Shown here: positions 32,712-48,834 of the stretch, one piece after another
Position numbering within the stretch: position 1 is the first letter of the stretch
Layout: the number at the start of each line of letters is the position of its first letter
Origin: Actinomycetes bacterium
GTDB taxonomy: Bacteria; Actinomycetota; Acidimicrobiia; Acidimicrobiales; RAAP-2
Direction of reading: 5' to 3'
NCBI GenBank assembly: GCA_021806045.1
Contig: JAJZDI010000002.1
Coordinates: forward strand, 233,233 to 283,930
DNA: 50,698 bases
Translations under genes and position numbers: made by a program
Notes under the pieces: model-generated
Database searches by the model: none
What the model was told of the DNA's origin: nothing
The model's input: the letters and a program-made list of their open reading frames with translations, nothing else

Positions 32712-34505
32712 TCACCACGAGACCGTCTCCGGCGCGGCGTCGTCGAAGTGGCGGCTCCCCACCGTCCACTGCTCGGTGGGGACCCGGGCGGAGGGCATCA
32801 CGGTCATCGATCCGTGCCGGCCGGGGACGGTGAAGGTGACCACGGTGTCGTCGGACGATCCGGCCAGCACGTGGACCTGCGAGACCACCACCCAGGTGGG
32901 ACCTTCAGCACCCACGGTGACCAGCGGGCCGCCCGAGACGAGCGTCGGCGGGCGGGCCCGCCCCGGCACGTTGACCGCCACCAGGCCCACGTACTCCCCG
33001 GCAACCGCGTCGACACCCGGGTAGGGCCCGGCGATGTACTGCGACTGCCCCGGAGGCGTGCTGTTGGCCAGGTGGACATGGAGTGTGACCTCCGTGTCGG
33101 CGCCGGCCGGTCGGGTGGTGACGGTGACCGAGGTGGACAGGTAGGGATCCAGCTTGTTGCCCCCCCGGTTGAGCACGGTGACGGCCACCGTCTTGGCGGT
33201 GATGGCGCCGGCGACCCCCGCCCCCGTCCACGCCGCCTCCGCCGTCGGGTCGGCCGACCACATCAGGAGGTGCCGCCCTTCGGTGGCAGAGGCCATGGCC
33301 TTGGCCAGGGTGGTCAGGTCGGTGGACTGTCCCTCCAACTGGTGGAGCACGGCCGAGGCCAGGGCACCCAGCCGGTCCCGGCGGCCAGTGTCGCCGGTGG
33401 CCGAGTCGGACAGCCCCGCGTACTGGTCGTGGAGCAGGTACTGCTCGACCGTGGATGCGTCGACGGTCACGCCAGCGGCGGTGACGGGGCCGGTGGCCTG
33501 GAGGAGCTGCTTCAGTCCGACCACGTCGAGGGAGAGGACGCCGTCGACGGTCTGGCCCGTGTCGGCCTTCCACATGGCGGCAGCCATGGACGCCGTCACG
33601 TCGAACTGGGGGGTGACGCCCAGGTTGCGCCAGTCTCGCCCGGGCTGGAGCCAGCCCCAGTTGCGGGCCAGCTCGGCAGGCACGGGGACGGCGCCGGCGG
33701 GGAGCGTGAGACTCCCGGCCGGCTGCATGGGACCGAGGTGGATGGTGCCGTCCGAAGTAGTGGCCGTACCCACTTCGAGGAAGGCGCCCGAGCCGGCCCG
33801 CATCTCGGCGTTGTTGGACGCCAGCACCAGGTAGGTGCGGGGACCCTTGAGGATGGCGGCAGTGGCCGACGACACCGCGGCGGCATGGGCCAGGCGGCTC
33901 TCGGCGTCGGTGAGCTGGCTGACGAACTCGTTGTGCTTGGAGGCGAGCACGGACACCAGCCCGGCCGACGGGCCCACGTCGATGGCGTCGAGACGGGCGG
34001 CGGCCGCACCCGACAGCGATGCCAGCTGCCGCAGTGCGGCCACCCGCTCGGGCCCGGCCCCGTGCGGGGACTGGAGGACGGCGTGGGCCCCGGACACGAA
34101 GGACGACCCCGTCGACGCCACGGTGGCGGCCGCCGAGGAGAGGTCACGCACCGCCGCGTACTGGCGACCCACCACGGGGACGACCTCGAGCGGGACCATC
34201 CATGGCTGGGACAGCTCGCGGTGGGCGGCGGCGAACTGGGCATGGGCCGCGTCGAGGGACCGCTGGGTGCCGGGCGCGCTGACCTGGTCCGGGTTGAGGT
34301 TCGAGCGCAGCTGTTGGAGCTGGTCCAGCCCGCTCTTGTCGTGGCTGTAGGCGGCGAGGGCGGTGGCGGCCACGGCCACCAACCACAGGACGATCAGCGC
34401 GCCGAGGGCGAGGAGGATGCGCCGGCGACGGTGCCGGCGACGCCGGTGAGGGGCGTCCTCGGGAGCGGGTTCGGCTGTCGGATCGTCGTCTGGCACGGTG
34501 GTCAT
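32712..34505 (-). CDS. DUF4012 membrane-anchored extracytoplasmic protein
   Basis: This protein of about 597 residues has a cytoplasmic acidic then Arg/His-rich start (HRRRRHRRRR), one transmembrane helix at about 30-52 (ILLALGALIVLWLVAVAATALAAY), then a long extracellular region with a coiled/helical part (about 65-220) and a DUF4012 core starting at LVLASNNAEMRAGSGAFLEVG. DUF4012 proteins are commonly found among surface-polysaccharide genes; their activity is unknown. ATG 34505 was chosen, with TACGGT about 50 nt upstream; the frame stays open to a TTG at 34631. It is divergent from the sortase gene. Confidence 0.8.
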   Translation of the reverse strand: MTTVPDDDPTAEPAPEDAPHRRRRHRRRRILLALGALIVLWLVAVAATALAAYSHDKSGLDQLQQLRSNLNPDQVSAPGTQRSLDAAHAQFAAAHRELSQPWMVPLEVVPVVGRQYAAVRDLSSAAATVASTGSSFVSGAHAVLQSPHGAGPERVAALRQLASLSGAAAARLDAIDVGPSAGLVSVLASKHNEFVSQLTDAESRLAHAAAVSSATAAILKGPRTYLVLASNNAEMRAGSGAFLEVGTATTSDGTIHLGPMQPAGSLTLPAGAVPVPAELARNWGWLQPGRDWRNLGVTPQFDVTASMAAAMWKADTGQTVDGVLSLDVVGLKQLLQATGPVTAAGVTVDASTVEQYLLHDQYAGLSDSATGDTGRRDRLGALASAVLHQLEGQSTDLTTLAKAMASATEGRHLLMWSADPTAEAAWTGAGVAGAITAKTVAVTVLNRGGNKLDPYLSTSVTVTTRPAGADTEVTLHVHLANSTPPGQSQYIAGPYPGVDAVAGEYVGLVAVNVPGRARPPTLVSGGPLVTVGAEGPTWVVVSQVHVLAGSSDDTVVTFTVPGRHGSMTVMPSARVPTEQWTVGSRHFDDAAPETVSW

Positions 34506-34556
34506 CGGTTCGGTCACTGCCGGGACGGCGAGATCGGCGGGCGCCGTGGCCCCCTG

Positions 34557-34562
34557 ACCGTA
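34557..34562 (-). promoter_or_regulatory. Possible -10 box TACGGT for the DUF4012 gene
   Basis: On the minus strand TACGGT would give a leader of about 44 nt before the ATG at 34505, and argues against starts further upstream. Confidence 0.3.
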
Positions 34563-34654
34563 CCCGGTCGGCTCAGCACCGGCCCGTCGGTCGGGCACCG
34601 CCGGGCAGGTCACGTCGGCCGGGACCCGCAAGCGGGGACCCGTGCCGCGCTGGT

Positions 34655-34660
34655 TAGCAT
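34655..34660 (+). promoter_or_regulatory. -10 box TAGCAT for the sortase gene (leaderless)
   Basis: TAGCAT is followed by 6 nt and the GTG at 34667. Confidence 0.5.
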
Positions 34661-34666
34661 GCCTGC

Positions 34667-35605
34667 GTGTCGTTCACGGCCGTGCGGGTAGTCATCGGGC
34701 GTGGGCTCATCGCCTTCGGCGTCCTCACCCTCCTGTTCATCCCCTACGTCCTGTGGGGCACCGGCATCGTCGCCGCCCAGCACCAGGCCGCCCTGCGCCA
34801 GCAGTTCGACGCCGCCCGCCAGCGGGCCGGTGCCACCACCCCGCCGACGACCCCACCCGCGCCCACCGGTCCCCCGCAGGTGGCGCCGGCCACACCCGGG
34901 CCGGCGGTAGGCAGTGCCGTGGGACAGCTGTCGATCCCGTCCATCGGCCTCACCACCGTCGTCGTCGAGGGAACGGGCGAGCCGCAGCTGCAGATGGGAC
35001 CCGGCCACTATCCGGGAACGCCGCTCCCCGGCCAGGCGGGTAACGCGGCCATCGCCGGCCACCGCACCACCTACCTCCATCCCTTCTACGACCTCGGCAG
35101 CCTCAAGCCGGGCGACGCCATCACGGTGGTGACCCTCCAGGGGACCTTCACCTACCGGGTCACCGGGAGCCAAGTGGTCACCCCGAACGACGTGACCCCC
35201 GTGGCGCCCACCCCCACCCCCCAGCTGACCCTCACCACGTGCACGCCGCTCTACAGCGCCTCCCACCGTCTGGTGGTCCACGCCGCGCTGGCGGCCAGCG
35301 TGCTGGCCCACCCGGCCAGTGCGGGGGCTCCCCCCACCCCCGCCACCACAGTGCCACCGGCAAGGTCACACCCGGCCACCGCCCCCTCGTCCGCCTCGGG
35401 CCTGGCCGGAGGCAGCGGGAGCTGGCTGCCCGCCCTGCTCTGGGGCCTGGTCCTCGTGGCAGTGGCCACCGCGCTCTGGGCCCTCGCCCGCCACCGGTCC
35501 CGGCGAGCCCGGCTCACCATCTACGGCGCCGGTGCTGTCATCGGGCTCGTGGTGCTGTTCTTCTTCTACGGGGCGGTCACCCCCCTCCTCCCGGCCAGCT
35601 TCTGA
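34667..35605 (+). CDS. Class E sortase
   Basis: This 312-residue transpeptidase has an N-terminal transmembrane helix, a Pro/Thr linker (about 50-80), a sortase barrel with His132 in AGHRTTY, Cys192 in LTTCTPLYS and a nearby Arg in SHRLVV, then two C-terminal hydrophobic helices. The TLxTC-like cysteine motif and high-GC actinobacterial context fit class E, which joins LAxTG-type proteins to the cell wall. No substrate with such a sorting signal was seen in this window. Two extra C-terminal helices after the catalytic domain are less usual. Confidence 0.88.
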   Translation: MSFTAVRVVIGRGLIAFGVLTLLFIPYVLWGTGIVAAQHQAALRQQFDAARQRAGATTPPTTPPAPTGPPQVAPATPGPAVGSAVGQLSIPSIGLTTVVVEGTGEPQLQMGPGHYPGTPLPGQAGNAAIAGHRTTYLHPFYDLGSLKPGDAITVVTLQGTFTYRVTGSQVVTPNDVTPVAPTPTPQLTLTTCTPLYSASHRLVVHAALAASVLAHPASAGAPPTPATTVPPARSHPATAPSSASGLAGGSGSWLPALLWGLVLVAVATALWALARHRSRRARLTIYGAGAVIGLVVLFFFYGAVTPLLPASF

Positions 35606-37240: not shown

Positions 37241-38737
37241 TCAGGAGGCGCCCCGACCCCCGAGCACCGTCGCCGGCGTCTTCCACAGGATGCGCATGTC
37301 CCACCAGAACGACCACGACGCCACGTAGAGGTAGTCGAGACGGCACATCTCGAGGTACGAGAGCTCGTTGCGCCCCGACACCTGCCACAGCCCGGTCATG
37401 CCCGGTCGCGCCTCGAAGCGCTTGCGGGCCCACCCGTCGATGGCCTCGGCCTCGGCCACCACGAACGGCCGGGGCCCGACCAGGGACATGTCGCCCCGCC
37501 ACACGTTGATCAGCTGGGGGAGCTCGTCGAGGCTGGTGCGGCGGAGGAAGCGGCCGATCCGGGTGACGCGGGGGTCCTCGCGCATCTTGAACAGCGGGCC
37601 GTCCACCTCGTTGCGATGGGCGAGCTCGTCGCGGACGCGCTCGGCCCCGTCCACCATGGTGCGGAACTTCAGCACGGAGAAGGGAACGCCGAAACGTCCG
37701 GAGCGCTCCTGGCGGAAGAAGACCGGGCCCGGGCTGGTGAACGCGATCAACGCGGCGGTGACGGCGAAGAACGGCGCCAGCACCAGCAGCGCCAGCGACG
37801 ACGCGGCCAGGTCGAAGGTCCGCTTGGCGAACCGGGCCCCGGCGCTGAACGACGCCGGCGCCACGTCGATGAGTGGCAGGCCGGAGACGTCCTCCACGCT
37901 GGAGCGAATGGTGAGCAGCTCGTAGTAGCGGGGCACGATCGACACGGCCACCTGGCCGGCCAGCCCCTTCAGCATGGCGATGGTGCGCTCCGGATGGGTG
38001 CGCGAAAAGCACACAACCACCCGCCCGACGCCGAGGGCCCGGCACAGCTCGGGCAGGTCGTCCAACCCGCCGAGCACCTGGTCCCCGTCGAGCGGGTTGT
38101 CGTCCACGTAGCCGAGGAACCGCACGTTGGCGTGGGCACGCATGTGGCCTGCGACGGTGCGCGCCATCACCCCGGTGCCGACGACGACGATGGGGACGGC
38201 CCCACCCCGCCGGCGCCCCGACATGGCCACCGCTGCCGTGCGCGATGCCGGGACGGCCACCAGGGCAAGCCCGCACATGGCGACGGTCTTGCCCACGGTC
38301 AGCTCGACGTTGCCGAAGGCGTGCTGGATGCCGTAGCCGATGGCGGCGGTGGCGAAGCCGCCGGCAACCAGGGCGTGGACGATGTCCTTCAGGTCGCCGA
38401 ACACGGCCGTGTCGATGCGCCGAGACGCCGACCGGTACAGGCCGTAGACGGCGAAGGCGGCCACGAACACCGGCACCACCGCCAGGTCGAACAGGAACAC
38501 CCCGCCGAGCCGGTCGGCCCGGCTGGCCGGGTTGTCCGAGACGGCCGCCACCACCAGCGGGGCGGCCAGGGCCGCCACCACCAGGGCGGCGACATCGGCT
38601 GCCACCAGGCGCCGGATGGCGCGGCGCCGGATGGCTGCCACGGGCGAGTGCTGGTCAGGACCAGTGTCGAGCGCCGGCCACTCGTCGAGATGGGGAAGCT
38701 CCACGGCCCGCCCGAGCCGTGGATCGAGAATCGTCAT
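37241..38737 (-). CDS. Polyprenyl-phosphate sugar-1-phosphate transferase (initiating EPS transferase)
   Basis: This 498-residue protein has four or five transmembrane helices in residues about 45-165, a nucleotide-binding-like middle domain (VPIVVVGTGVMARTVAGHMR, about 180-290) and a C-terminal bacterial sugar transferase domain (about 305-495) with KRTFDLAAS, KFRTM, GRFLRRTSLDELPQL and GDMSLVGPRP. It transfers a sugar phosphate from a UDP-sugar to undecaprenyl phosphate, the first step of exopolysaccharide repeat-unit assembly. ATG 38737 has a purine-rich AGGGCAGG upstream. The probable promoter gives a leader of over 100 nt. Confidence 0.92.
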   Translation of the reverse strand: MTILDPRLGRAVELPHLDEWPALDTGPDQHSPVAAIRRRAIRRLVAADVAALVVAALAAPLVVAAVSDNPASRADRLGGVFLFDLAVVPVFVAAFAVYGLYRSASRRIDTAVFGDLKDIVHALVAGGFATAAIGYGIQHAFGNVELTVGKTVAMCGLALVAVPASRTAAVAMSGRRRGGAVPIVVVGTGVMARTVAGHMRAHANVRFLGYVDDNPLDGDQVLGGLDDLPELCRALGVGRVVVCFSRTHPERTIAMLKGLAGQVAVSIVPRYYELLTIRSSVEDVSGLPLIDVAPASFSAGARFAKRTFDLAASSLALLVLAPFFAVTAALIAFTSPGPVFFRQERSGRFGVPFSVLKFRTMVDGAERVRDELAHRNEVDGPLFKMREDPRVTRIGRFLRRTSLDELPQLINVWRGDMSLVGPRPFVVAEAEAIDGWARKRFEARPGMTGLWQVSGRNELSYLEMCRLDYLYVASWSFWWDMRILWKTPATVLGGRGAS

Positions 38738-38886: not shown

Positions 38887-38916
38887 CAACGGCCTATGGG
38901 CCGTTGGTTGTTTTTT
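38887..38916. terminator. Stem-loop with T-run at the end of the carrier-protein operon
   Basis: CAACGGCC-TATG-GGCCGTTG (38887-38906) is a perfect 8-bp stem followed on the plus strand by GTTGTTTTTT. It lies a few bases past the stop of the GH2 gene, which reads on the minus strand, so for that operon the hairpin comes after an A-run and lacks a good U-tract. It would terminate plus-strand antisense transcripts best, and may act in both directions. Confidence 0.6.
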
Positions 38917-38920
38917 CAGC

Positions 38921-41431
38921 TCATGTCACGATCGGTGACGAAAGACGCGCGTTCAGCGCGCGAATTCGGCCCCGGAGTGCCTCCGGCACGCCGGATGCAC
39001 CCGATCGCCACAACGGCCGGACGCCGACCACCCGGCGCCCACCGGGTGGGAGGTGGAACCACGAGTCGGCCGGCACGAACCCCGGCGCTTCGATCGCCAC
39101 CCACCGGGCCGCCCGCTGCGTCGTGATCTCCACCGTCCACGATCCGTCGCCCGCCGGCGACGCCGCCGCGGCCAGCCCCGGGTCCCCGTCCGGCAACCAC
39201 CCACCGTCGCCCAGAGCGACCACGTCCTCCACGACGGCGTGGTCCGTGCCGTCGATGAGCCGGACCACCATGGTCGGGTACGGGACGGGACCGAAGCGGT
39301 AGGTCCCGGCCAGGTCGGCGAACCGGCCGAGCAGCGACAGCGGTTCGACGGTGACCGAGCCCCGGCCCGGCAGGGAGACCGGCGTCTCCAGCACCTCGGC
39401 GGGGACGGGGTGGTCGCCGAAGAGCTCGATCCGGAGCACGCCCTCGAGCCCCTCGGGGCGGTCGCACACGACGTGGAGCCGGAGCCCGTTCACCCCCTCG
39501 TCGGACACGAGCACGGCCACCGGCGCGCACACCCGGGCCAGCGTGTAGTAGGGCGCCTTCGGCAGCCCGGTGGCATCGATCATCCCCCAGCCCGCACCGG
39601 GACGGAGGTCGCGCAGGCACACCAGGAGGGCTCCGGCGCACGGCGATCCCGGTCGCCGCCATTCGGCGACCGCTCCCGCCACCAGCTCCCCCACCGTGGC
39701 CCGACCGAGGTCGAGCGCTCGTGCTGGATCGGCGAAGCGCGCCTGGCGTGGTTCGATCCCGGTGCGGCGGGCGATGTAGTCGTCGCGGACGTCCTCCAGG
39801 TCGAAGGGGCGCCCGGTGTCGTGGTGGATGGCCGCCTTCCATGCCGGGTCGTGGCCGGCGGCGGCGGCACCGCCGAAGAACCGGTCCACCGTTGGCGGTT
39901 CAGGGGGCACGGCGAAGGCGAGGCCCTCGGAGACGAAGCGGGGCGCGGCACGCCGGGCGTCGTCGGGATGGTGGCGGTACGCGCCCACGCCGAAATAGTG
40001 TCCGATGCCCTCGTCGACGCGGAACGGTGGCTCCCCGCCGGTCGGGCTGGTGGGGACGTAGGGGACACCGGGGAGCACGTCCCCCACCACGTCGGCCAGC
40101 GTGGAGGTGACCAGGGGGATGCCGCGCTGCTCCGGTCGGAGCCCGAACATCGCCGGCTGCTCCTCGAGCTCCTGGCCGCCGCACACCACCGCCAGGGACG
40201 GGTGGCCGCCCCGGGGAGCCAGCTGCTCGGTGACCTCGGCCACCACCTCGGCCGCGAACACGTCGGTGTCGGGCGGGTCGAGGTAGCCGAGCATGCAGTC
40301 GGCCCACAGGGCGATGCCCAGCTCGTCGCACAGGTCGAACAGGTCATCGCCCGGATAGACGGTGCCGCCGGGGATCCGCAACAGGTTGAACCCGGCGTCG
40401 CGCGCCAGTTCGAGGGTGGCACGCACCTCGGCCTGCGCTGCCGCGAACCCGACCGGGTCGACCGGGAACCAGGCGGCGCCCCGGGCGAAGATCGGCACGC
40501 CGTTCCACACCAGCGTGAACCCGCCACCGGTCCGGTCGGCGGTCACCGTGCGGAACCCGACCCGGCCGAGCGACAGCTCGCTCCCGGCGATCCCGGCCGT
40601 CACGTCGACGAGCGGCTGGTCCCCGTGGGTGTGGGGCCACCAGTGGCGCACCTCCGCCAGCTCGATTCTGGCGGACGCCACCCGCCCCCCGGCCGGGACG
40701 AGGGGGGCGCGCACGCCGCCCGCCTCCACCCAGGCGTCGCCGACCATGCCATCGCCGAGGCCGTCACCTTCCACCTCGACCCGGATCCGGCCGCCGGCGC
40801 CGACGCACTCGGACCGCAGCGAGCGGACGCGCACTCCTCCACTGCCGGCGGGCACCAGGGTCACCGGGCCCCACGGGCCGACCGGAGCGGGCGTGACCGT
40901 CCACCCGGGCTGGCGTCCGAGCAGGGTGGTGCGGAACCAGCGCAGGTTCTGGTGGGTGGCCAGGCCCGTCTTCCACCGCGGCCGCGGCCGGCGCTCGGCG
41001 AGGAGCGGTACGAGGGCGCGGAAGCAGATGGTCACCTCGACCCGCCCGGCGCGCAGGTCGACGCCGGCCTCGAGGGCCCGGAACATGTTCTCCCCGTGGG
41101 CGACGTGGACCCCGTCGACGAAGACGTCGGCCACCGTGGCCAGCCCTGCCGCCACCAGGACCGCCCGGCCGGGGCCGTGGTGGTGATCGACCGCGCACCG
41201 GTACCACCAGTCGGCACCGTCGAGCACGGCCGTGGTGGGCAGGTCGCGACCGGCCGCGATCCAGGCACCGGCGACCGTCCCCGGCACGCTGGCGGGGAGC
41301 CACGACAGTCCCAGCCCGGCCAGCGCGTCGGGAGCGGCGGCCGCGCCCGGCGCGGTGGCGGCGCACTCCCAGGCCGCGCCGGCCAGCACGTCCGCCACCC
41401 CCGGGACGTCACCCGCTGGGACGTCAGGCAC
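38921..41431 (-). CDS. Glycoside hydrolase family 2 beta-mannosidase-like protein
   Basis: This 836-residue protein has the GH2 layout: an N-terminal jelly-roll (WWYRCAVD, FVDGVHVAHGENMF), immunoglobulin-like domain(s) with WWPHTHGDQPL, a TIM barrel (RGAAWFPVD, ELARDAGFNLLRIPGG) and C-terminal beta domains. The expected nucleophile is Glu502 in RFVSEGLAF. At the acid/base site, where family members have Asn-Glu, the sequence is CGGQE (Gln420-Glu421). No signal peptide is visible. GTG 41431 overlaps the DUF1839 stop by 8 bp. It is the last gene of the amino acid:carrier-protein operon, so its true role may be glycan trimming or binding. Confidence 0.82.
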   Translation of the reverse strand: MPDVPAGDVPGVADVLAGAAWECAATAPGAAAAPDALAGLGLSWLPASVPGTVAGAWIAAGRDLPTTAVLDGADWWYRCAVDHHHGPGRAVLVAAGLATVADVFVDGVHVAHGENMFRALEAGVDLRAGRVEVTICFRALVPLLAERRPRPRWKTGLATHQNLRWFRTTLLGRQPGWTVTPAPVGPWGPVTLVPAGSGGVRVRSLRSECVGAGGRIRVEVEGDGLGDGMVGDAWVEAGGVRAPLVPAGGRVASARIELAEVRHWWPHTHGDQPLVDVTAGIAGSELSLGRVGFRTVTADRTGGGFTLVWNGVPIFARGAAWFPVDPVGFAAAQAEVRATLELARDAGFNLLRIPGGTVYPGDDLFDLCDELGIALWADCMLGYLDPPDTDVFAAEVVAEVTEQLAPRGGHPSLAVVCGGQELEEQPAMFGLRPEQRGIPLVTSTLADVVGDVLPGVPYVPTSPTGGEPPFRVDEGIGHYFGVGAYRHHPDDARRAAPRFVSEGLAFAVPPEPPTVDRFFGGAAAAGHDPAWKAAIHHDTGRPFDLEDVRDDYIARRTGIEPRQARFADPARALDLGRATVGELVAGAVAEWRRPGSPCAGALLVCLRDLRPGAGWGMIDATGLPKAPYYTLARVCAPVAVLVSDEGVNGLRLHVVCDRPEGLEGVLRIELFGDHPVPAEVLETPVSLPGRGSVTVEPLSLLGRFADLAGTYRFGPVPYPTMVVRLIDGTDHAVVEDVVALGDGGWLPDGDPGLAAAASPAGDGSWTVEITTQRAARWVAIEAPGFVPADSWFHLPPGGRRVVGVRPLWRSGASGVPEALRGRIRALNARLSSPIVT

Positions 41432-42395
41432 CGAGCCGGCCCTCCAGGACCTCGATGCCCCGCGCCCACCCGGCACCCATCTGGGCCAGCGGGCCGTCCA
41501 GGTCGCCACTGCGGCCGCGGGCACGCCGGGCCAGGACGAACTGGAGCGTCTTCGCTGCCTCGGCGGCCGTCCCGAAGGCGTCGACCGCCCGATCGAGCCC
41601 GCCGACGTGGGGCCCCAGCCAGGCGGCCAGCGACGCCGCCAGCTCGGCGCCGGCGCCGAACTGACGGCACGTCCCGAAGGCGTAGCCGTGGAAGATCTCC
41701 GGACCCGAGACGGCCAGCCAGGGCAGGTCGTCGCGGATGCGCCCGGCCATGGCGGCCACCGGGTCGGCGGCCGGCCGGCGCTCCAGGTGCCCGAGGGTGC
41801 AGGTGATGACCCGGTCGACCAGGTCGTGGGGGACGCGGGCGCCGTCGACCTTCACCACTTCCACGTAGGGTGGCAGTGCCGGCGGGGCCGACCCCACCAC
41901 CGCGGCGGCATCCTCACCCTCCACCTCGAAGTAGCCGGCGTTGTGGAAGTAGCCGAGGGCGGGACCGTCCGGGTCGAAGGCGTTGGGAACGACGGTGGTC
42001 TTCGTGTGCTCGAGCCGGTAGGAGACCCCGGCGGTGTCGGGAAGGTGCCAGGCGTCGGCCTCCACCGTCAGCAGGTGGCCGAGTCCGAGGTGCTCGACGA
42101 GGTGGTCGGCGACGGGCCGCCACACGTTGAGCTCGGCCACCTCGATCCCGTAGAGGGTGCGGAGGTCCTCGATCGGGTACTTCGTGAACGTCCACTGGTC
42201 ACCCTCGAACCCGGCGCTCACGGTGAAGGCCGTCCCCGCCACCGGATCGAGGTCCAGGGAGGCGAGGACCTCGATCCACACGTCGACCGCGCAGTTCGTC
42301 TCCGTCCAGATGCGTTCGGGGCCGTGCAGCGGATGGGGCCGGTAGGTGGCGGCGTCCAGGTCGAGCAGCCGCTGCGGCCAGCTTCCCTCCCTCAC
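41424..42395 (-). CDS. DUF1839 family protein
   Basis: This 323-residue protein matches DUF1839: a start with HPLHGPERIWTETNCAVDVWIEVLASL, a middle EGDQWTFTKYPIEDLRTLYGI and a C-terminal helical part (FGTCRQFGAGAELAASLAAWL, DAFGTAAEAAKTLQFVLARR). The N-terminal half with a conserved Cys in TNCAVDVW resembles thiol-dependent transferase folds, which is only a suggestion. DUF1839 genes occur beside amino acid:carrier-protein ligases elsewhere, so it is a candidate for accepting or transferring the carrier-bound amino acid. GTG 42395 overlaps the ligase stop by 4 bp. Confidence 0.8.
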   Translation of the reverse strand: MREGSWPQRLLDLDAATYRPHPLHGPERIWTETNCAVDVWIEVLASLDLDPVAGTAFTVSAGFEGDQWTFTKYPIEDLRTLYGIEVAELNVWRPVADHLVEHLGLGHLLTVEADAWHLPDTAGVSYRLEHTKTTVVPNAFDPDGPALGYFHNAGYFEVEGEDAAAVVGSAPPALPPYVEVVKVDGARVPHDLVDRVITCTLGHLERRPAADPVAAMAGRIRDDLPWLAVSGPEIFHGYAFGTCRQFGAGAELAASLAAWLGPHVGGLDRAVDAFGTAAEAAKTLQFVLARRARGRSGDLDGPLAQMGAGWARGIEVLEGRLGA

Positions 42396-43303
42396 GGCCA
42401 CAGCGCGCTGCGCACGGCAGCCGGCCACCGGTCGGGATCCGGACCGTGCCGGGCGAGGAGGGCGAGCGTGATCCGGTCGAGCCCGAAACCGAAGCACGAG
42501 GTGTGGGCCACCTCGCCATCCGCGGTGGCGATCCCGAAGGTCAGGGCGAAGTGGTCGAGGTGGGAGTTGGCGGAGCACAGCGCCACCGGCGGGTCGTCGT
42601 CGTCGATCCGTGCCACCAGCTCGAGTTTGAGCTCCTGGGTGCGCTGGCTGGCCGCCAGCAGGCGGCCGGCTCGGCCGAAGAAGGGATCGTTGGCCGCCAC
42701 CGCCTCGACCTCGAGTCCCAGACGGCCGAGGAGGGACGCCCCCCGCTGGATCCAGTCGTCGCGGTGCCGGCGCGCCTCGTCGGGACCGTCGAGGGCCACG
42801 TAGTCGTGCTGGCGGAAGGCCTGCATGCGGAACGGGTCCTCGCTCGGCTCGTGGCGGAAGCACCAGCCGGAGACCTCGACCCGCCGCCCGCCTGCCGGCA
42901 GCGTCCCGGCGCACGTCGGGTAGAGGGGGTGGCAGACGGCAGGGCACAGCATGACGTCCGCGGGGACCAGTCCGTCGGTCCACGACTCCCCCGACTCCAC
43001 CGCGGCGAGGAGCGCTGCGTGGCTCGCCTCGTCGCCGGCGAAGGTGTGCACCGAGCCGATCAGGTCGGGGAAGGACTCCAGGTAGCCGCTGGCCTCGAAG
43101 ACGGTCCGGGGGAGCACGGGCGGGAAGCGCACCGACTCCACCGGGCGGTCGGCACCGGCCCGGAGGACCAGCCCCTCCAGGCCCTCGACGACTGACTCGA
43201 AGCCGGCCGATCGGCCGTAGACGCCCGGCGCGTCGGTGGGCACCAGGACGCGGGCGTCGACCAGCGTGGCACGCAGGCGGGCCCGAGCGGGCGAGACGGT
43301 CAC
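42392..43303 (-). CDS. Amino acid:[carrier protein] ligase (SerRS-like class II synthetase homologue)
   Basis: This 303-residue protein looks like a seryl-tRNA synthetase catalytic core without the tRNA-binding coiled coil. Motif 2 is GWCFRHEPSEDPFRMQAFRQHDY (from residue 146) and motif 3 is CFGFGLDRITLALL (270-283). Candidate zinc ligands are Cys124 (CHPLYP), Cys270 and, at the place of the usual Glu, Asp167. Known relatives in Bradyrhizobium activate glycine or alanine with ATP and load it on the phosphopantetheine of a small carrier protein rather than on tRNA. Here the carrier, a phosphopantetheinyl transferase and a dehydrogenase are in the same operon. GTG 43303 overlaps the previous stop by 4 bp. 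Confidence 0.87.
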   Translation of the reverse strand: MTVSPARARLRATLVDARVLVPTDAPGVYGRSAGFESVVEGLEGLVLRAGADRPVESVRFPPVLPRTVFEASGYLESFPDLIGSVHTFAGDEASHAALLAAVESGESWTDGLVPADVMLCPAVCHPLYPTCAGTLPAGGRRVEVSGWCFRHEPSEDPFRMQAFRQHDYVALDGPDEARRHRDDWIQRGASLLGRLGLEVEAVAANDPFFGRAGRLLAASQRTQELKLELVARIDDDDPPVALCSANSHLDHFALTFGIATADGEVAHTSCFGFGLDRITLALLARHGPDPDRWPAAVRSALWP

Positions 43304-44463
43304 TCCACCCCCCGGTGGACCAGGAGCAGCTGGGCGTTGTTCCCGAGGATGCGGTCGTTGTTCACCATGAGCGCGGCACCAAGGGCGTCGCGCAGGTGGC
43401 GGCCGAGGGCGTAGGGCCCGCCGTTGCGGTACCCGGCCATGCCGCACACCTGCATCGACCGGTGGACCACGTCCACCACGAGGGTGGACGCCGACACCTT
43501 CAGCGAGTTCATGGCGAGGGCGAAGCCGACCGACGACAGCGCCTCCGGATCGTCACGGGCATCGTCGAACCGGCGGGCACCGCTGCGCACCGAATCGGCC
43601 AGCTGCCCGAGGACGGCGAGCAGCTCGGCCACCCGCCGTGCCGCCTCGGGAGGCGTGCCCGGCGTCCGCCGTGCCGCGGCCTGGACGTAGGCCCGGGCAC
43701 GCTGGGCTGCGGCCGAGGCGATCCCCCACCACACCGCGCTCCACAGCACGTGCGCCACCGGCAGCATGGTCCGGGCCGAGATGTCCGCATAGGGATCGGG
43801 GAACACCTCATCCGCGCTCCCCGTGGCCCGCAGGACGAACCCGGGGCTGCACGTCCCGCGGAACCCCAGGGTGTCCCACTCGGTCACCTGCTCGAGCTCC
43901 AGGCCCGGCGGGCGGCACACCACCAGGACCTGGTCGTTCGGCGGGCTGTCTCCGTCCCGCCGGGCGGTGACGAGGACGGCATCGGCCTGGGCGCCGTAGG
44001 AGATGACGGGCGCCTCCTTCACCAGGTGGAACCGGTCCCCGTCGCGCTCGAGCGCGCACCGGCTGGAGCGCACGTCGCCGCCGATGCCGACCTCGGTGGT
44101 GGCCGATGCGAGGAGGAGGGGGTGCTCGACCAGGCCGGCCGTCAGGCGCTCCAGCGCGGGGGTGCGGCCATGCCGGGCCAGGCACGCCACCTGGATGTGG
44201 TGCATGGCCAGCACCATGGCGCTGGACGCGCACTGCCGCCCCAGGGCGGCCACCGACTCGGCCACCTCGATCAGGGCGGCTCCCGGGCCGCCCAGTGCGA
44301 CCGGGACCAGCGCGCCGAGGGCGCCGGACGCGGCGAGGGCAGCGAACGTCTCCTCGGGGAACCTGGCCCGGGCGTCGACGTCGTCGGCGTGCACCCCGGC
44401 CACTTGATCGGCGACCTGGGCCACCACACCGGCCAGGGTGCCGGTCGCCGGGCCGTCAGGCAC
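43300..44463 (-). CDS. Acyl-CoA-dehydrogenase-like flavoprotein (probable carrier-bound aminoacyl oxidase)
   Basis: This 387-residue protein has the acyl-CoA dehydrogenase fold: an N-terminal helical domain, a beta domain (LASATTEVGIGGDVRSS, then WDTLGFRGTCSPGF) and a C-terminal helical domain with MQVCGMAGYRNGGPYALGRHLRDALGA. It binds FAD. Its place between a carrier protein and an amino acid ligase suggests it oxidises the aminoacyl thioester on the carrier, as flavoproteins do on prolyl-carrier proteins in pyrrole synthesis; that is inference. GTG 44463 overlaps the carrier stop by 8 bp. Confidence 0.85.
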   Translation of the reverse strand: MPDGPATGTLAGVVAQVADQVAGVHADDVDARARFPEETFAALAASGALGALVPVALGGPGAALIEVAESVAALGRQCASSAMVLAMHHIQVACLARHGRTPALERLTAGLVEHPLLLASATTEVGIGGDVRSSRCALERDGDRFHLVKEAPVISYGAQADAVLVTARRDGDSPPNDQVLVVCRPPGLELEQVTEWDTLGFRGTCSPGFVLRATGSADEVFPDPYADISARTMLPVAHVLWSAVWWGIASAAAQRARAYVQAAARRTPGTPPEAARRVAELLAVLGQLADSVRSGARRFDDARDDPEALSSVGFALAMNSLKVSASTLVVDVVHRSMQVCGMAGYRNGGPYALGRHLRDALGAALMVNNDRILGNNAQLLLVHRGVE

Positions 44464-44704
44464 CGAGCAGCTCCTCCAGCGCGATGCGGATGGCGCTCAC
44501 CGAGGCGAACGTGTCCTTGCGCAGCAGGCGCTCGGGGAACTCGACGTCGAACTCGTCCTCGATGGCCAGCATCACGTTCACGCTGGCATGGGACGTCATA
44601 CCCGCCGCGTACAGGTCGGCGGTGTCGTCGAGCGCCTCCACCCCCCCGGGCATACGGGCATGGGCGGCGAGCACGGCCCGGATCCGTTCCTCCACGTCAG
44701 CCAT
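44456..44704 (-). CDS. Acyl/aminoacyl carrier protein
   Basis: This 82-residue carrier protein has the four-helix ACP pattern with the phosphopantetheine Ser38 in DLYAAGMTSHASVNVMLAIE (usual motif DSL; here TSH) and the acidic helix ending IEDEFDVEFPERLL. The ATG at 44704 (MADVEERIRAVL) was preferred to an upstream in-frame start, which lies inside the phosphopantetheinyl transferase gene. It overlaps both neighbours by 8 bp and is the likely substrate of both adjacent enzymes. Confidence 0.9.
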   Translation of the reverse strand: MADVEERIRAVLAAHARMPGGVEALDDTADLYAAGMTSHASVNVMLAIEDEFDVEFPERLLRKDTFASVSAIRIALEELLGA

Positions 44705-45251
44705 CAGGTCCCCTTCGCTCGTCGTCCGTCCACCCGCCGGTCCCCCCCTCTCCGGTAGCCGGTGGAGCATCGCACACGGCCACGATCACCGCAGCGGCAA
44801 CCCCCCCGTGGTGGGTGAGGCTGACCGCCCACGACCGGATGCCGGCGGCGGTGGCGAGCACCGCCGCCGATCCGGACACCTCCAGCTCGCATTGTCCGCT
44901 CGGCAGGCGCCGCACGGCGATGTCCGTCCACGGCGGCGCCCACCCGTCGGGCGCCAGCACCTTGACGACCGCCTCCTTGGCGGCGAAGCGGGCGGCCAGT
45001 CCCTCTGCGGCCGACGTGCCGGCTGACGGCCATCGGCTGTCCTCACGCTCGCCCTCGGTGAAGAGGCGGCGGGCGTAGCGGTCGCCGAAGGTTGCCAGCG
45101 AACCGGCCACCTCATCGATAGCGACCACGTCGACCCCGGCCCGGCACACCACACCGGAGGGCGCCTCCAGTCCCCCGACGGCGGTTGCCGCCGCATGGGC
45201 CAGCTCGGCCGCCACCTCCCCTACCAGCTCCCCTGCGCCCGTCACGGCCAC
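44697..45251 (-). CDS. AcpS-type 4'-phosphopantetheinyl transferase
   Basis: This 184-residue protein has the AcpS motifs AGVDVVAIDEV with Asp41 and FAAKEAVVKVL with Glu93, 52 residues apart as in AcpS. It attaches phosphopantetheine from CoA to a carrier-protein serine, most likely Ser38 of the carrier encoded next. A 36-residue N-terminal and a Gly/Asp-rich C-terminal extension make it longer than housekeeping AcpS (about 120-140 residues). The GTG at 45251 is preceded by TACCGT and 5 nt; a GTG at 45245 is an alternative. It is the first gene of the operon. Confidence 0.87.
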   Translation of the reverse strand: MAVTGAGELVGEVAAELAHAAATAVGGLEAPSGVVCRAGVDVVAIDEVAGSLATFGDRYARRLFTEGEREDSRWPSAGTSAAEGLAARFAAKEAVVKVLAPDGWAPPWTDIAVRRLPSGQCELEVSGSAAVLATAAGIRSWAVSLTHHGGVAAAVIVAVCDAPPATGEGGTGGWTDDERRGPDG

Positions 45252-45256
45252 ACAAG

Positions 45257-45262
45257 ACGGTA
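45257..45262 (-). promoter_or_regulatory. -10 box TACCGT heading the amino acid:carrier operon
   Basis: On the minus strand TACCGT lies 5 nt before the GTG at 45251, in the 31-bp gap after the upstream glycosyltransferase stop. It suggests the six-gene operon has its own leaderless promoter. Confidence 0.45.
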
Positions 45263-45282
45263 CCGCGACGCGACGCGCCCCC

Positions 45283-46437
45283 TCAGGCGTGACCGGCGGC
45301 GGTCCGGTAGCAGGCCCGGTACCGATCGGCGATCATCGGCCAGGCGAAGTCGGCCACGCGAGCGCGCCCGGCCTCGGCCAGCGCCCGCCGTCGCTCCGGT
45401 GACGCCAGCAGGTCGGCCAGCACTCGGCTGAATGCCCCGGTGTCGGACGGGTCGACCAGCACGCCATCGACGCCGTCGGTGACGAACTCGGGAGGGCCGC
45501 CCGCCGCCGTCGCCACCACCGGGGCGCCCGCCCGCCACGCCTCGAGGACCACGATGCCGAAGGGCTCGAGGCGGCTGGGCATCACGAACAGCTCGGCGCC
45601 CGCCATGGCCGCGGCCACCTGGTCACGGTCCAGACGGCCGGGGAAGTGCACCCGGTCGGCGACGCCCAGGCGCCCGGCCAGAGCGACCAGCCGAGCCCGC
45701 TCGGCGCCGTCGCCCGCCACGACCAGGTCGGCCGGACGCTCGGCAGGTGACAGCGCGGCGTAGGCGGCGAGGAGGAGGTCGAACCCCTTCTTCTCGACCA
45801 CGCGGCCGACCGCCAGCACGTAGGGCGCGTCCGGCGCCCCCGCCCACGCCGTGACCCCGCCGGTGGTCAGGTCGACGCCGTTGAAGACCACCGAGCCCAC
45901 ACCGCGCGCCAGCCCGAAGCGGGCCTCGGCGTCGGCCAGGGTGAAGGCGGAGCAACCGGTGACGGCGGCGGCCCGCCGGAGCGCCACCCGCAAGCCGGTG
46001 CGCAGCACGGTGGAGCGTTCGAAGATGTCGGCGTCGTCCATGACCGTCTCGCCCTGCAGGGTCACAACCAGTGGCACCCGGCGCCACGCGGCCAGCGCGG
46101 TGGCGTAGACGCCGTTGGGCCCGAAGCACTGGACGTGGAGCACGTCGGGCCGGAACTCGTCGACGGCCCGCCCCAGGGCGGCCATGGTCCGCAGCGCCCC
46201 GGGTCCCGACCGGGCGAGCGGACCCGGTCTGGCCGCCGGCAGCGGGAGGGGGAAGCGGCGCACGGTGATGCCGTCGAGGAGCTGGCGGCTCGGGGGGTCC
46301 CGGTCGTCAGGGGTCCCCGTCCACACCTCCACCTCGTCGCCCCCGTCGCGGAGGGTGAGGGCGAGGTGGCGGGTGAGCTCCTCCACGCCGCCGAGTGCCG
46401 GGAGGTACGCGCTCGGCAGGAGTGCGACCCGGGTCAC
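45283..46437 (-). CDS. GT4 glycosyltransferase
   Basis: This 384-residue GT-B enzyme opens with LLPSAYLPALGGVEELTRHLA and has VLHVQCFGPNG, LAVGRVVEKKGFDLLLAAY (sugar-nucleotide Arg/Lys) and SRLEPFGIVVLEAWRAGAPVVA with E-x7-E. The donor may be a GDP- or UDP-sugar; the acceptor is unknown. It lies 31 bp upstream of the carrier-protein operon on the same strand, so some read-through is likely. GTG 46437 has no Shine-Dalgarno sequence. Confidence 0.88.
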   Translation of the reverse strand: MTRVALLPSAYLPALGGVEELTRHLALTLRDGGDEVEVWTGTPDDRDPPSRQLLDGITVRRFPLPLPAARPGPLARSGPGALRTMAALGRAVDEFRPDVLHVQCFGPNGVYATALAAWRRVPLVVTLQGETVMDDADIFERSTVLRTGLRVALRRAAAVTGCSAFTLADAEARFGLARGVGSVVFNGVDLTTGGVTAWAGAPDAPYVLAVGRVVEKKGFDLLLAAYAALSPAERPADLVVAGDGAERARLVALAGRLGVADRVHFPGRLDRDQVAAAMAGAELFVMPSRLEPFGIVVLEAWRAGAPVVATAAGGPPEFVTDGVDGVLVDPSDTGAFSRVLADLLASPERRRALAEAGRARVADFAWPMIADRYRACYRTAAGHA

Positions 46438-46479
46438 GGCGCCACCGACCCGTCGCTCCTGTTGCCGTGCACGCCGGGA

Positions 46480-46547
46480 CGGTACCAGTACCGGGGTCGG
46501 CCCGGTTACCCGTGCGCTCCGGACCGGCAGCCGGCGCTCCGGACCGG
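46480..46547. repeat. Inverted repeat and 14-bp direct repeat upstream of the glycosyltransferase gene
   Basis: CGGTAC-CA-GTACCG (46480-46493) is a perfect 6-bp inverted repeat; GCGCTCCGGACCGG occurs twice with a 20-bp period (46514-46527 and 46534-46547). They fill the 139-bp gap after the pseudo-zincin gene and may hold its terminator or the glycosyltransferase promoter region. Confidence 0.5.
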
Positions 46548-46576
46548 TGCCCAGCCCCGGACTCCCGGGCGGCGCT

Positions 46577-47632
46577 TCAGCCGATGGTCGGGTTCAACCA
46601 GGGCTCCACCGCAGCCAGGGTGGCGCCGGTCGGCATGGGTGCGACGTTGCTCCACTGGCCGACACCGGGGGACCAGTAGGCGGAGAACGCCGCCGCGTAC
46701 CAGCCGGACAGGAAGTTCTGCTCGGCGCAGTCGCAGTTCGGTGCCCAGCTCGCCGGGTGGATGCCCAGGATGTTCTCGATCTGGCTGTGCCCTCCCTGGG
46801 GATCCACGGCCGCAGCGTCGACCTCGTGGCCGATCTCGAAGGCGGTGATACCAGCGAGCTGCTGCACCGTCTCACCGGGGTAGACGTACATGGTCGACGT
46901 GCCACCGGCCTGGCCCCACGTGAAGGACGTGTTCCCGTAGAAGCCGGGCGAGGGCGCATCCGAGATGGGGAGGAACTGGATCGAGTACCCGGGGATCCGC
47001 TGCCACGGGTAGCGCACGAGGGTGAGCGCCTCGGCTCCCAGCTGCTGGGGCGTGGCGGCCGGAGCGGCGGCCGGCGCGGGTGCGGGTGCCGCAGTCGCCG
47101 GGGCGGCGGTGGCGGCGGCGGGAGGAGCCGAAGCCGGCGGCGCCGTGGTGGGGGGGGCGGTCGTCGCTGGGGTCGTCGCCGCCGGTGCAGAGGTCGGCGG
47201 GGTCGTCGTCGGCGGGGTCGTCGTCGGGGGGGTCGTGGTCGGGGGGGTCGTGGTCGGGGGGGTCGTGGTCACCGGCGCGTGATGGACCGACGCGTGCTGC
47301 TGGGAGCCGGCGTCAGCCGCCGCCAGGGCCCGCACCGCCGCCACGTGCGGAGCGCCGCTCCCGTCGAGTCCGGCAGCACCGGCCACGCCGGCGACGGCCA
47401 GTACCGCCACCCCGATCCCCACCTGCAGAGCACGGACGGTCAGCGAGCGGCCGTAGAACGCACGCCGCAGCGCGTTGACCGGTCCGGTCCGGCGGCGGTC
47501 GGGTCCGTGGTAGCCAGGGACGGCGACGGTCGCGACGTAGGCGGCATCGTCGGCCACGGGCGCCGTCCCGACGGGAGCGGCACCACCAGTGGTGGCCTCG
47601 AGGCCTTCGGCAAGGGGGGCAGGATCTTGCAT
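46577..47632 (-). CDS. Membrane-anchored wall protein with Thr/Pro linker and degenerate zincin-like domain
   Basis: This 351-residue protein has a cytoplasmic start, one transmembrane helix near residues 70-92 (ALQVGIGVAVLAVAGVAGAAG), a Thr/Pro then Ala/Pro linker (about 115-190) of a kind that crosses the cell wall, and a C-terminal globular domain. That domain contains TAFEIGHEVDAAAVD, like an HEIGH zincin helix whose first His is Phe, and later CDCAEQNFLSGWYAAAFSAYWSPG, like the region of a third metal ligand. It may be an inactive metallopeptidase relative. ATG 47632 has GGAG about 4 nt upstream. Function unknown. Confidence 0.7.
   Translation of the reverse strand: MQDPAPLAEGLEATTGGAAPVGTAPVADDAAYVATVAVPGYHGPDRRRTGPVNALRRAFYGRSLTVRALQVGIGVAVLAVAGVAGAAGLDGSGAPHVAAVRALAAADAGSQQHASVHHAPVTTTPPTTTPPTTTPPTTTPPTTTPPTSAPAATTPATTAPPTTAPPASAPPAAATAAPATAAPAPAPAAAPAATPQQLGAEALTLVRYPWQRIPGYSIQFLPISDAPSPGFYGNTSFTWGQAGGTSTMYVYPGETVQQLAGITAFEIGHEVDAAAVDPQGGHSQIENILGIHPASWAPNCDCAEQNFLSGWYAAAFSAYWSPGVGQWSNVAPMPTGATLAAVEPWLNPTIG
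47200..47276 (-). repeat. 15-bp coding repeat (TTTPP units)
   Basis: About five near-identical 15-bp units encode the Thr-Thr-Thr-Pro-Pro linker of the wall protein. Slippage here would change linker length in frame. Confidence 0.8.
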
Positions 47633-47732
47633 CGGTCTCCGGTGCGCCCCGGGCGGGCGCTCACCTTCCCATCGGCGCATCTCGACCCAGCCTGTAGCGG
47701 GTCAACCACGGAGCGTGATGATCAGTGCGAAG

Positions 47733-47738
47733 TACGCT
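47733..47738 (+). promoter_or_regulatory. Probable -10 box TACGCT for the polysaccharide export cluster
   Basis: TACGCT lies 31 nt before the ATG at 47770 and would give a short leader. Confidence 0.35.
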
Positions 47739-47769
47739 CTGGGCACCGCGCTCCGTCATGATTTCGCCC

Positions 47770-48834
47770 ATGTCGCGCCCCCGCCCCCGCCCCCGCCGCA
47801 TCGTCCTCGCCTCGATGGCAACCACCGTGGCCATGGGCCAGCAGGGTTACGAGGCACACCTGGCAGAAGCCCTCACCCGGGTGGCCGGCACCGGCTGGGA
47901 GGTGCGGACGTGCCGGGTGCGGTCGTTGCGTTCACGGGCCCCGGGTGAGCGCCGCCTTCCCCTCCAGGCCGTCGGCTCCCTCCCCCCGCACGCGGGCCGG
48001 TGGATCGGCCGCGCCGCCTACGGGCGGGCAACGGTGGTGCACCGGCTCGACCTGCGCATCCCACCGCCGGCCGCCCCCGAGGTCCTCACCGTCCACGACC
48101 TGGCACCACTGCGCTTCGCCGACGAGGGACGCCTACCCCGCAACTGGCAGGCGTCGGTGCGGGGAGCGGCGGCCGTCGTCGTCCCGTCGGCCTTCACCGC
48201 AGCCGAGCTGGAGGAGATCACCGGCGTCAGGGCCGTCGTCATCACCCACGCCCACGATCCGGAACTGGTCGGCGCCGCACCCCTCGGCGACGACGCCCTG
48301 GCGACGCTCGGGATCAGCCGTCCCTACGTCCTCCACGCCGGGGGGGCAACCGAACGCAAGAACCTGGCCGCTCTGGCCGACGCCTGGGCGATGGTGCGGG
48401 CGGAGCGGATCGACGCCACCCTCGTCCTGTGCGGCCCGCCCGATACCCGCCGCGACGGCCACTTCGCCACCCTGCCTGGCACGGTCCGGCCCGGGCGCCT
48501 CGACCGCCCGACACTCGTCGGGCTCCTGCGCGGGGCCGGGCTGGTGGTCGTGCCCTCCACCTACGAGGGCTTCGGCCTGCCCGTCCTCGAGGCGCTCACG
48601 GCCGGCGTGCCCGTGGTCGCGTCCGACCGCGGCTCGCTCCCCGAGGTGGTGGGCGACGCCGGCCTCCTGGTCGAGCCGACGGGCCCGGGCCTGGCCGAGG
48701 GGATCCTCGCCACCCTCGCCGACCCCGAAGGGGCGGCTGCCCGGGCGGCCAGGGGCCGGGCACGGGCACGGGAGCGCTCGTGGGACGACGTGGCCGCCGA
48801 CCATCTCGACCTGTACCGGCGGGTCGCCGGGTGA
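47770..48834 (+). CDS. GT4 glycosyltransferase (mannosyltransferase-like)
   Basis: This 354-residue GT-B enzyme has a basic start, LTVHDLAPLRFADEGRLPRNW, the donor site YVLHAGGATERKNLAALADAW and VPSTYEGFGLPVLEALTAGVPVVASDRGSLPEV with E-x7-E. The VHDL...P and ASDRGSLPEVVGDA segments are typical of mannosyltransferases of O-antigen clusters. ATG 47770 was chosen; the frame extends 15 residues upstream to an ATG at 47725 that precedes the -10 box. It is followed by the ABC exporter genes. Confidence 0.87.
   Translation: MSRPRPRPRRIVLASMATTVAMGQQGYEAHLAEALTRVAGTGWEVRTCRVRSLRSRAPGERRLPLQAVGSLPPHAGRWIGRAAYGRATVVHRLDLRIPPPAAPEVLTVHDLAPLRFADEGRLPRNWQASVRGAAAVVVPSAFTAAELEEITGVRAVVITHAHDPELVGAAPLGDDALATLGISRPYVLHAGGATERKNLAALADAWAMVRAERIDATLVLCGPPDTRRDGHFATLPGTVRPGRLDRPTLVGLLRGAGLVVVPSTYEGFGLPVLEALTAGVPVVASDRGSLPEVVGDAGLLVEPTGPGLAEGILATLADPEGAAARAARGRARARERSWDDVAADHLDLYRRVAG

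Follow-up and report, generated by a model that had tools for sequence, protein, structure and literature searches.

A conserved six-gene operon of an Acidimicrobiia genome as a predicted aminoacyl-carrier pathway, with a DUF1839 protein of amide-synthase fold

What the amino acid:[carrier protein] ligases do in the cell has been an open question since 2010, and a passage of a 2022 review still describes the biological role of amino acid attachment as one that ‘remains unknown’ (PMC9437257). What such a ligase might serve is asked here of a six-gene operon in a 50,698-nucleotide stretch (hereafter the window; positions 233,233–283,930 of contig JAJZDI010000002.1, assembly GCA_021806045.1) that closes a contig of 283,930 bases in a 3.1 Mb Acidimicrobiales genome, where a SerRS-like ligase and a carrier protein are encoded together with a phosphopantetheinyl transferase (PPTase), a flavoprotein, a DUF1839 protein and a GH2 protein. 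The operon is genuine and conserved, its pathway is still unsolved, and it belongs to a system that was predicted earlier and for which a testable mechanism can now be offered; we judge it moderately probable that it is a stand-alone aminoacyl-carrier pathway resembling lincosamide synthetase, which decorates an amino sugar, probably for surface polysaccharide, with DUF1839 presumed to be the aminoacyl-carrier:amino-sugar amide synthase. The six genes, in order of transcription, are:

44697–45251, minus strand: PPTase of the AcpS-type superfamily (PF01648, E 1.7e-11; TIGR00556, 63.1 bits, cut-off 45.35)
44456–44704, minus strand: carrier protein (NF005480, 95.3 bits, cut-off 72)
43300–44463, minus strand: flavoprotein of acyl-CoA dehydrogenase fold, lacking the usual catalytic Glu (PF02771, PF00441)
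42392–43303, minus strand: SerRS-like amino acid:[carrier protein] ligase (NF005479, 408.7 bits, cut-off 357)
41424–42401, minus strand: DUF1839 protein, papain-like (PF08893, 343.8 bits, cut-off 22.5; alternative start 42395)
38921–41431, minus strand: GH2 protein, beta-mannosidase/glucosaminidase-like (PF22666, E 4.4e-12)

The role proposed for DUF1839 derives from its predicted structure, an AlphaFold 2 model (mean pLDDT 93.5) that is folded like the carrier-protein-dependent amide synthases: VIA-align placed CcbD at Z 20.2 (286 residues, 3.4 Å), AziU3 at 18.8 and CtaG at 16.5, the next match standing at 7.9 and phytochelatin synthase, another papain-like protein, at 6.7, while Foldseek returned AziU3 (4e-8) and CtaG (6e-6) with TM-scores of about 0.6. 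CcbD and LmbD, in the portion of the published account consulted, couple a proline tethered to the carrier, as an amide, to the amino sugar thiooctose; catalysis is ping-pong via a cysteine that is assisted by His and Glu (PMC12945683). The DUF1839 family retains Cys (61/62), Thr (59/62) and His (62/62), in agreement with the C(T/S)H triad published for DUF1839 in 2023, as given in the part of that survey consulted (PMC10318531); the order by spacing is Cys, Thr, His, not the Cys-His-Glu of CcbD and LmbD, and because of this difference DUF1839 is not classed as CcbD despite its like fold and setting. No tie of DUF1839 to CcbD, AziU3, lincosamide, closthioamide or azinomycin was found in the literature searched, outside which most subscription papers lie. 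The amide-synthase fold and the conserved neighbourhood described below both support the original prediction, made from the DNA sequence of the window, of a carrier-based aminoacyl pathway in which DUF1839 passes the acyl group on, and the CcbD-like fold turns the question of role into a defined assay of loaded carrier, DUF1839 and amino sugars.

Conservation of the gene set was assessed in a scan of one genome per species, which gave at least 595 pattern matches, at least 568 of them ligase relatives, and from which the best 80 loci were kept. Because gene calling failed in several loci (no genes called in L017, L019, L036, L041, L086 and L104; part of them on the wrong strand in L015, L034, L044, L046 and L049), counts are those of profile searches on all reading frames, and some labels of metagenome-assembled genomes (MAGs) are doubtful, for example that of the ‘Klebsiella pneumoniae’ bin L041. 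Carrier protein accompanies the ligase in 79 of the 80 loci, flavoprotein in 75, DUF1839 in 61 and GH2 in 57. A two-domain Cys alpha/beta hydrolase (ABH) is present in 54, and a PPTase match was found in just 26. The uninterrupted run carrier-flavoprotein-ligase-DUF1839-GH2 (same strand, gaps of at most 400 nt) is present in 45 of the 80, under 32 taxon labels that include Acidimicrobiia, Rhodococcus, alpha-, beta- and gammaproteobacteria, Planctomycetes and Acidobacteria, and the conserved neighbourhood of ligase, DUF1839, flavoprotein and GH2, a check named beforehand, is borne out by it.

Occurrence is moreover nested, with no GH2 in the 80 loci without DUF1839 and no DUF1839 without flavoprotein; DUF1839 occurs without GH2 in four, two of which (L025 and L031) are not at a contig end, so that GH2 can be absent from the set. 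Among 22 genomes without a local DUF1839, the 12 Rhodococcus carry a copy elsewhere, one has a stop-bearing remnant and nine have none. Among 396 Actinomycetota genomes, ten have a ligase match (four above cut-off) and three a DUF1839 match, all three within the ten, a co-occurrence expected by chance about once in 100,000 by our own arithmetic. Four annotated plasmids carry carrier, dehydrogenase, ligase and DUF1839 in order, with GH2 too on three, a count that excludes a fifth record, which carried no annotation. Pairwise identities correlate with those of the ligase at 0.83 for the flavoprotein, 0.84 for DUF1839, 0.82 for GH2, 0.77 for the hydrolase and 0.52 for the carrier, values obtained without a neutral control and not used as proof.

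Individual loci depart from the common arrangement. Cupriavidus metallidurans has a second DUF1839 gene (L109:17644–18696) on the opposite strand, a few kilobases from its first cluster; an Abditibacteriaceae locus holds a gene of 410 amino acids between DUF1839 and GH2 (L075:12155–13387; no NCBIfam match); and a family of about 490–566 amino acids follows ABH in many Rhodococcus loci (L083:12749–14323; no NCBIfam or Pfam match). In a Mycobacterium MAG (L128) only a short piece of DUF1839, interrupted by an in-frame stop, is left (G413:C24:8508–8645), and the genome keeps ligase and carrier without flavoprotein, which argues for part-by-part decay of the pathway.

For loading of the carrier, the operon ligase can be compared with Bll0957 of Bradyrhizobium, an amino acid:[carrier protein] ligase whose structures (PDB 3mey, 4h2w) align with it over 278 of 300 residues at E 4e-73 and better. 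At the position of Bll0957 A281, 75 of 76 family members, the window ligase included, have Gly; the A281G variant of Bll0957 reportedly also activates alanine and serine, and with this pocket residue the ligase family may not be strictly glycine-specific. The zinc ligands of Bll0957, which we take to be Cys-Glu-Cys (C131, E176, C279), correspond to columns in which C121 and C267 are present in 76/76 ligases and the third position is Glu in 71/76; unlike Bll0957, the window ligase has Asp at this third presumed ligand, as do four relatives (L025, L026, L030, L032). The carrier gene (44456–44704), which shares the locus of the ligase as a carrier gene does in 79 of the 80 loci, encodes Ser41 (numbering of the form of 82–86 amino acids) as the presumed phosphopantetheine site, a Ser in 73/73 relatives. 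A hint of joint expression comes from a phaR mutant of Bradyrhizobium diazoefficiens, where the ligase Bll0957 and the dehydrogenase Bll0958 were each changed 3.0-fold, as listed in the consulted part of the source (PMC10888616).

The flavoprotein (model pLDDT 92.5) has the acyl-CoA dehydrogenase fold, with Z up to 42.0 to dehydrogenases and comparable values for monooxygenases (5z8t 40.9, TdsC and DszC 39.4–39.8, MsuC 39.5). At base positions set by hand from the known motifs, that of MCAD is Val or Ile in 73/73 flavoproteins and that of IVD is Ala, Ser or Thr in 74/74; because both usual bases are absent, a classical alpha,beta-dehydrogenase is disfavoured. H238, W241 and W245 are invariant, nitrososynthases are among the distant relatives, and the prolyl-carrier dehydrogenase RedW gives a weak match (32 bits). 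Oxidation of an aminoacyl thioester is a plausible candidate activity.

The GH2 protein is matched by the beta-mannosidase 6byc (E 4e-36), with which it shares both catalytic carboxylates, the acid/base E452 being retained in 50/52 relatives and the nucleophile E533 in 52/52. The mannosidase Asn before the acid/base is mostly replaced in the operon family (Ser in 42 of 52 relatives, Gln in 6, Asn in 3, Thr in 1), and Ser-Asp is found at this place in two proteins with an Ig_GlcNase domain, of exo-beta-glucosaminidase type; the Ser doublet, common to these two and to most GH2 relatives, suggests that the −1 site of most family members takes an amino sugar, a comparison resting on two proteins only and leaving open the case of the window protein, which has Gln. 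The Ig_GlcNase domain (PF18368) is missing among the Pfam matches of the operon GH2, and the genome has no match to it either. An N-terminal hydrophobic stretch was seen in none of the six families (0 of 76, 73, 74, 62, 52 and 48 members), GH2 being without a visible signal peptide, for which reason the chemistry of the pathway should be cytoplasmic.

A further component lies outside the operon. ABH consists of two alpha/beta-hydrolase domains, distantly related to TIGR03101 and TIGR03100 (exosortase-A hydrolases 2 and 1), and all 22 sequences share a Cys in the nucleophile elbow of the C-terminal domain and a His; the copy of the window genome scores 82.3 bits to TIGR03101 and 67.3 bits to TIGR03100, below both cut-offs, as do four relatives, and is encoded on contig C43, flanked by genes for a Wzz-like protein and for glycosyltransferases. 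In 35 ligase genomes, mostly those without a local copy, ABH matches at E 1e-20 or better were found in 30, several being fragments, and five had no match; among the 396 Actinomycetota genomes 18 match ABH (a lower bound, with three candidates scored per listed genome), six strongly (E < 1e-100), and the ligase is present in four of these six, the other two belonging to one genus. The pathway had been described as self-contained, which finds no support, since ABH, part of the locus in 54 of the 80 relatives, is on another contig here and a PPTase was matched in so few loci. In exosortase-A gene clusters, stretches around 18 of the 32 above-cut-off Burkholderiales TIGR03098 ligases have both a carrier and a hydrolase-2/1 homologue in nine cases, one of the two in two and neither in seven, and in one stretch ligase, decarboxylase and fused hydrolase all score above their cut-offs.

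Around 17 ligase loci, 26 of 280 genes are of polysaccharide type; in 17 control stretches drawn from those genomes the figure is 9 of 321 (Fisher p 0.0008, paired Wilcoxon p 0.046). Such genes occur in 13 of the ligase stretches and in 4 of the controls. The 12 query proteins came partly from the same or related loci, the 17 include the window locus, and gene totals are unreliable for L015, L019, L036 and L041, where gene calling was poor; for these reasons the support for a glycan is only moderate. A surface glycan had earlier been named as possible acceptor, and this part of the proposal is moderately strengthened by the enrichment and by the presence of ABH in polysaccharide clusters, a surface glycan thereby being a putative acceptor.

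From this gene content, conserved linkage, nested occurrence, fold and set of active-site residues we infer the amino acid, the oxidation product, the acceptor, the roles of GH2 and hydrolase and the fate of the product as follows. The PPTase would prime the carrier protein, which the SerRS-like ligase would load with a small amino acid, glycine or, judging from the pocket residue, possibly alanine or serine. The flavoprotein would oxidise the carrier-bound aminoacyl group, N-oxygenation or C–N oxidation being likelier than classical alpha,beta-dehydrogenation, and DUF1839 would accept the acyl group on its cysteine and link it as an amide to the amino group that an amino sugar offers. The cytoplasmic GH2 may work on the same amino-sugar glycoside by trimming, release or transglycosylation, ABH, encoded elsewhere in the genome, may be part of the same system, and the decorated sugar would most probably be incorporated into surface polysaccharide. 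Such a pathway would explain the gene set across several phyla and would point to an undescribed glycan substituent or metabolite.

Several observations weigh against this scheme. CcbD is absent among the 50 Foldseek matches listed for DUF1839, a DUF1839 profile search of PDB sequences returned only unrelated helical proteins, with CcbD, AziU3 and CtaG absent, and by spacing the DUF1839 Thr stands at the CtaG His position and its His at the CtaG Asp position (CtaG residue numbers taken from structure variant names). The Gln in place of Ser before the acid/base of the window GH2 is a further such point, and carrier-linked dehydrogenases are among the fold matches of the flavoprotein (TcsD, Z 41.3; ColB1, Z 40.2, which performs cysteine dehydrogenation on an assembly line); assignment of the flavoprotein sub-class by fold was abandoned, the dehydrogenase and monooxygenase Z values being too close to separate. 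Three genomes (L038, L097, G292) have the flavoprotein without DUF1839, and as all three have ABH, DUF1839 is not the sole onward route and ABH may stand in for it where it is missing.

The last of these points bears on the proposal that DUF1839 is a hydrolase or peptidase (a thioesterase, or an enzyme of cell-wall glycan processing), as the 2023 survey suggests, and that ABH, with its invariant Cys and His, performs the transfer; the papain-like family and permuted C(T/S)H site would suit this, but we regard it as improbable, because DUF1839 matches three carrier-dependent enzymes over its whole length, much better than it matches other papain-like proteins such as phytochelatin synthase, and has no visible signal peptide. 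A stronger competitor, though still unlikely in our estimate, retains the same chemistry and makes the product a diffusible small molecule, a lincosamide-like amino-sugar amide, the nearby glycosyltransferases being incidental: the best structural relatives of DUF1839 make antibiotics, the gene set is also found on plasmids, and four of the 17 loci tested for enrichment have no polysaccharide-type gene, a finding that also tells against the surface glycan. The enrichment of polysaccharide-type genes, the placement of ABH among polysaccharide genes, both in this genome and at exosortase-A loci, and a spread over several phyla that is unusual for an antibiotic argue against it. Supply of the charged carrier to nonribosomal peptide synthesis is very improbable; the ligase of G107 lies near proteins of 1521 and 2457 amino acids and that of Sorangium (L094) near one of 1938, but both genomes lack DUF1839, and the median size of the 45 most widespread families around the ligase never exceeds 827 amino acids.

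The immediate surroundings of the operon contain:

45283–46437, minus strand: GT4 glycosyltransferase gene, ending 31 bp upstream of the PPTase gene on the same strand
38887–38906, minus strand: 8-bp stem-loop 3′ of the GH2 stop (−18.2 kcal/mol, z −2.26)
37241–38737, minus strand: polyprenyl-phosphate sugar transferase, downstream (PF02397 and TIGR03025, above cut-off)

Six genes in this order with short overlaps had been read from the sequence, and coordinates and family matches confirm them; the successive overlaps are 8, 8, 4, then 4 or 10, then 8 bp, so that the claimed range of 4–8 bp applies to four junctions and depends at the remaining one on which GTG, 42395 or 42401, starts DUF1839. 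The hairpin said to end the operon is present (5 of 200 shuffles were equally stable), but its terminator role is not established because no T-run lies behind it. A −10 box of the operon's own did not appear in a sigma-70 scan of 44600–47800, a scan of little weight in which shuffles likewise scored 0.0, and transcription may start further upstream than the PPTase gene, since the same-strand GT4 gene is 31 bp away and in six Acidimicrobiia loci (L025, L026, L027, L029, L031, L033), all with a PPTase match, a GT4 gene precedes the run and a sugar-phosphate transferase gene follows it. Upstream of GT4 lies a Pro/Thr-rich protein (46577–47680; no Pfam or NCBIfam match above cut-off), with similar proteins in five of the nearest Acidimicrobiia loci, and further cell-surface genes near the operon encode a DUF4012 protein and a sortase-domain protein (32715–35605).

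The interpretation first given to the locus restates a published prediction. A note in proof of 2010 (Biol Direct 2010;5:48; PMC2922099), in the portion consulted, describes a SerRS-paralogue neighbourhood of ligase, acyl carrier protein (ACP), redox enzyme, uncharacterized open reading frame (ORF), glycosidase and liposaccharide genes, and predicts that the ORF forms an amide to a cell-surface amino sugar and that the redox enzyme probably monooxygenates; the operon has this gene set, and the ORF, Atu2574, is putatively DUF1839. That portion offers a prediction without structure or residue evidence and is silent on the Cys hydrolase, the CcbD fold and the GH2 doublet, and no experimental test of it was found in the literature searched. 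What the present analysis adds is the structural connection between DUF1839 and CcbD, AziU3 and CtaG, the active-site evidence for flavoprotein and GH2, the nesting of gene occurrence and the tie to the hydrolase. The exosortase-A module (TIGR03098, TIGR03099, ACP, TIGR03101/TIGR03100) likewise places a carrier beside a fused two-domain hydrolase homologous to ABH, which itself falls short of the two curated cut-offs; the module has an AMP-forming ligase and a pyridoxal phosphate (PLP) decarboxylase where the operon has a SerRS-like ligase and a flavoprotein. A bolder proposal, tentative and in our view somewhat less probable than its negation, is that DUF1839 stands at the head of a widespread family of amide synthases that join carrier-bound aminoacyl groups to amino sugars, the non-antibiotic counterpart of lincosamide synthetase, and that with a flavoprotein devoid of the usual base it installs an oxidised aminoacyl amide, a substituent not yet described, GH2 being the glycosidase of that sugar, and that together with the exosortase-A ligase/ACP/hydrolase-2+1 module it makes up a general polysaccharide-decorating class. 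Lincosamide synthetase itself (LmbC/carrier domain/LmbD, and CcbD) uses an adenylation domain in place of the SerRS-like ligase; the operon adds a flavoprotein and GH2, and its DUF1839 has a permuted triad and no sequence-profile link, yet ligase, carrier protein and papain-like joining enzyme are shared by both.

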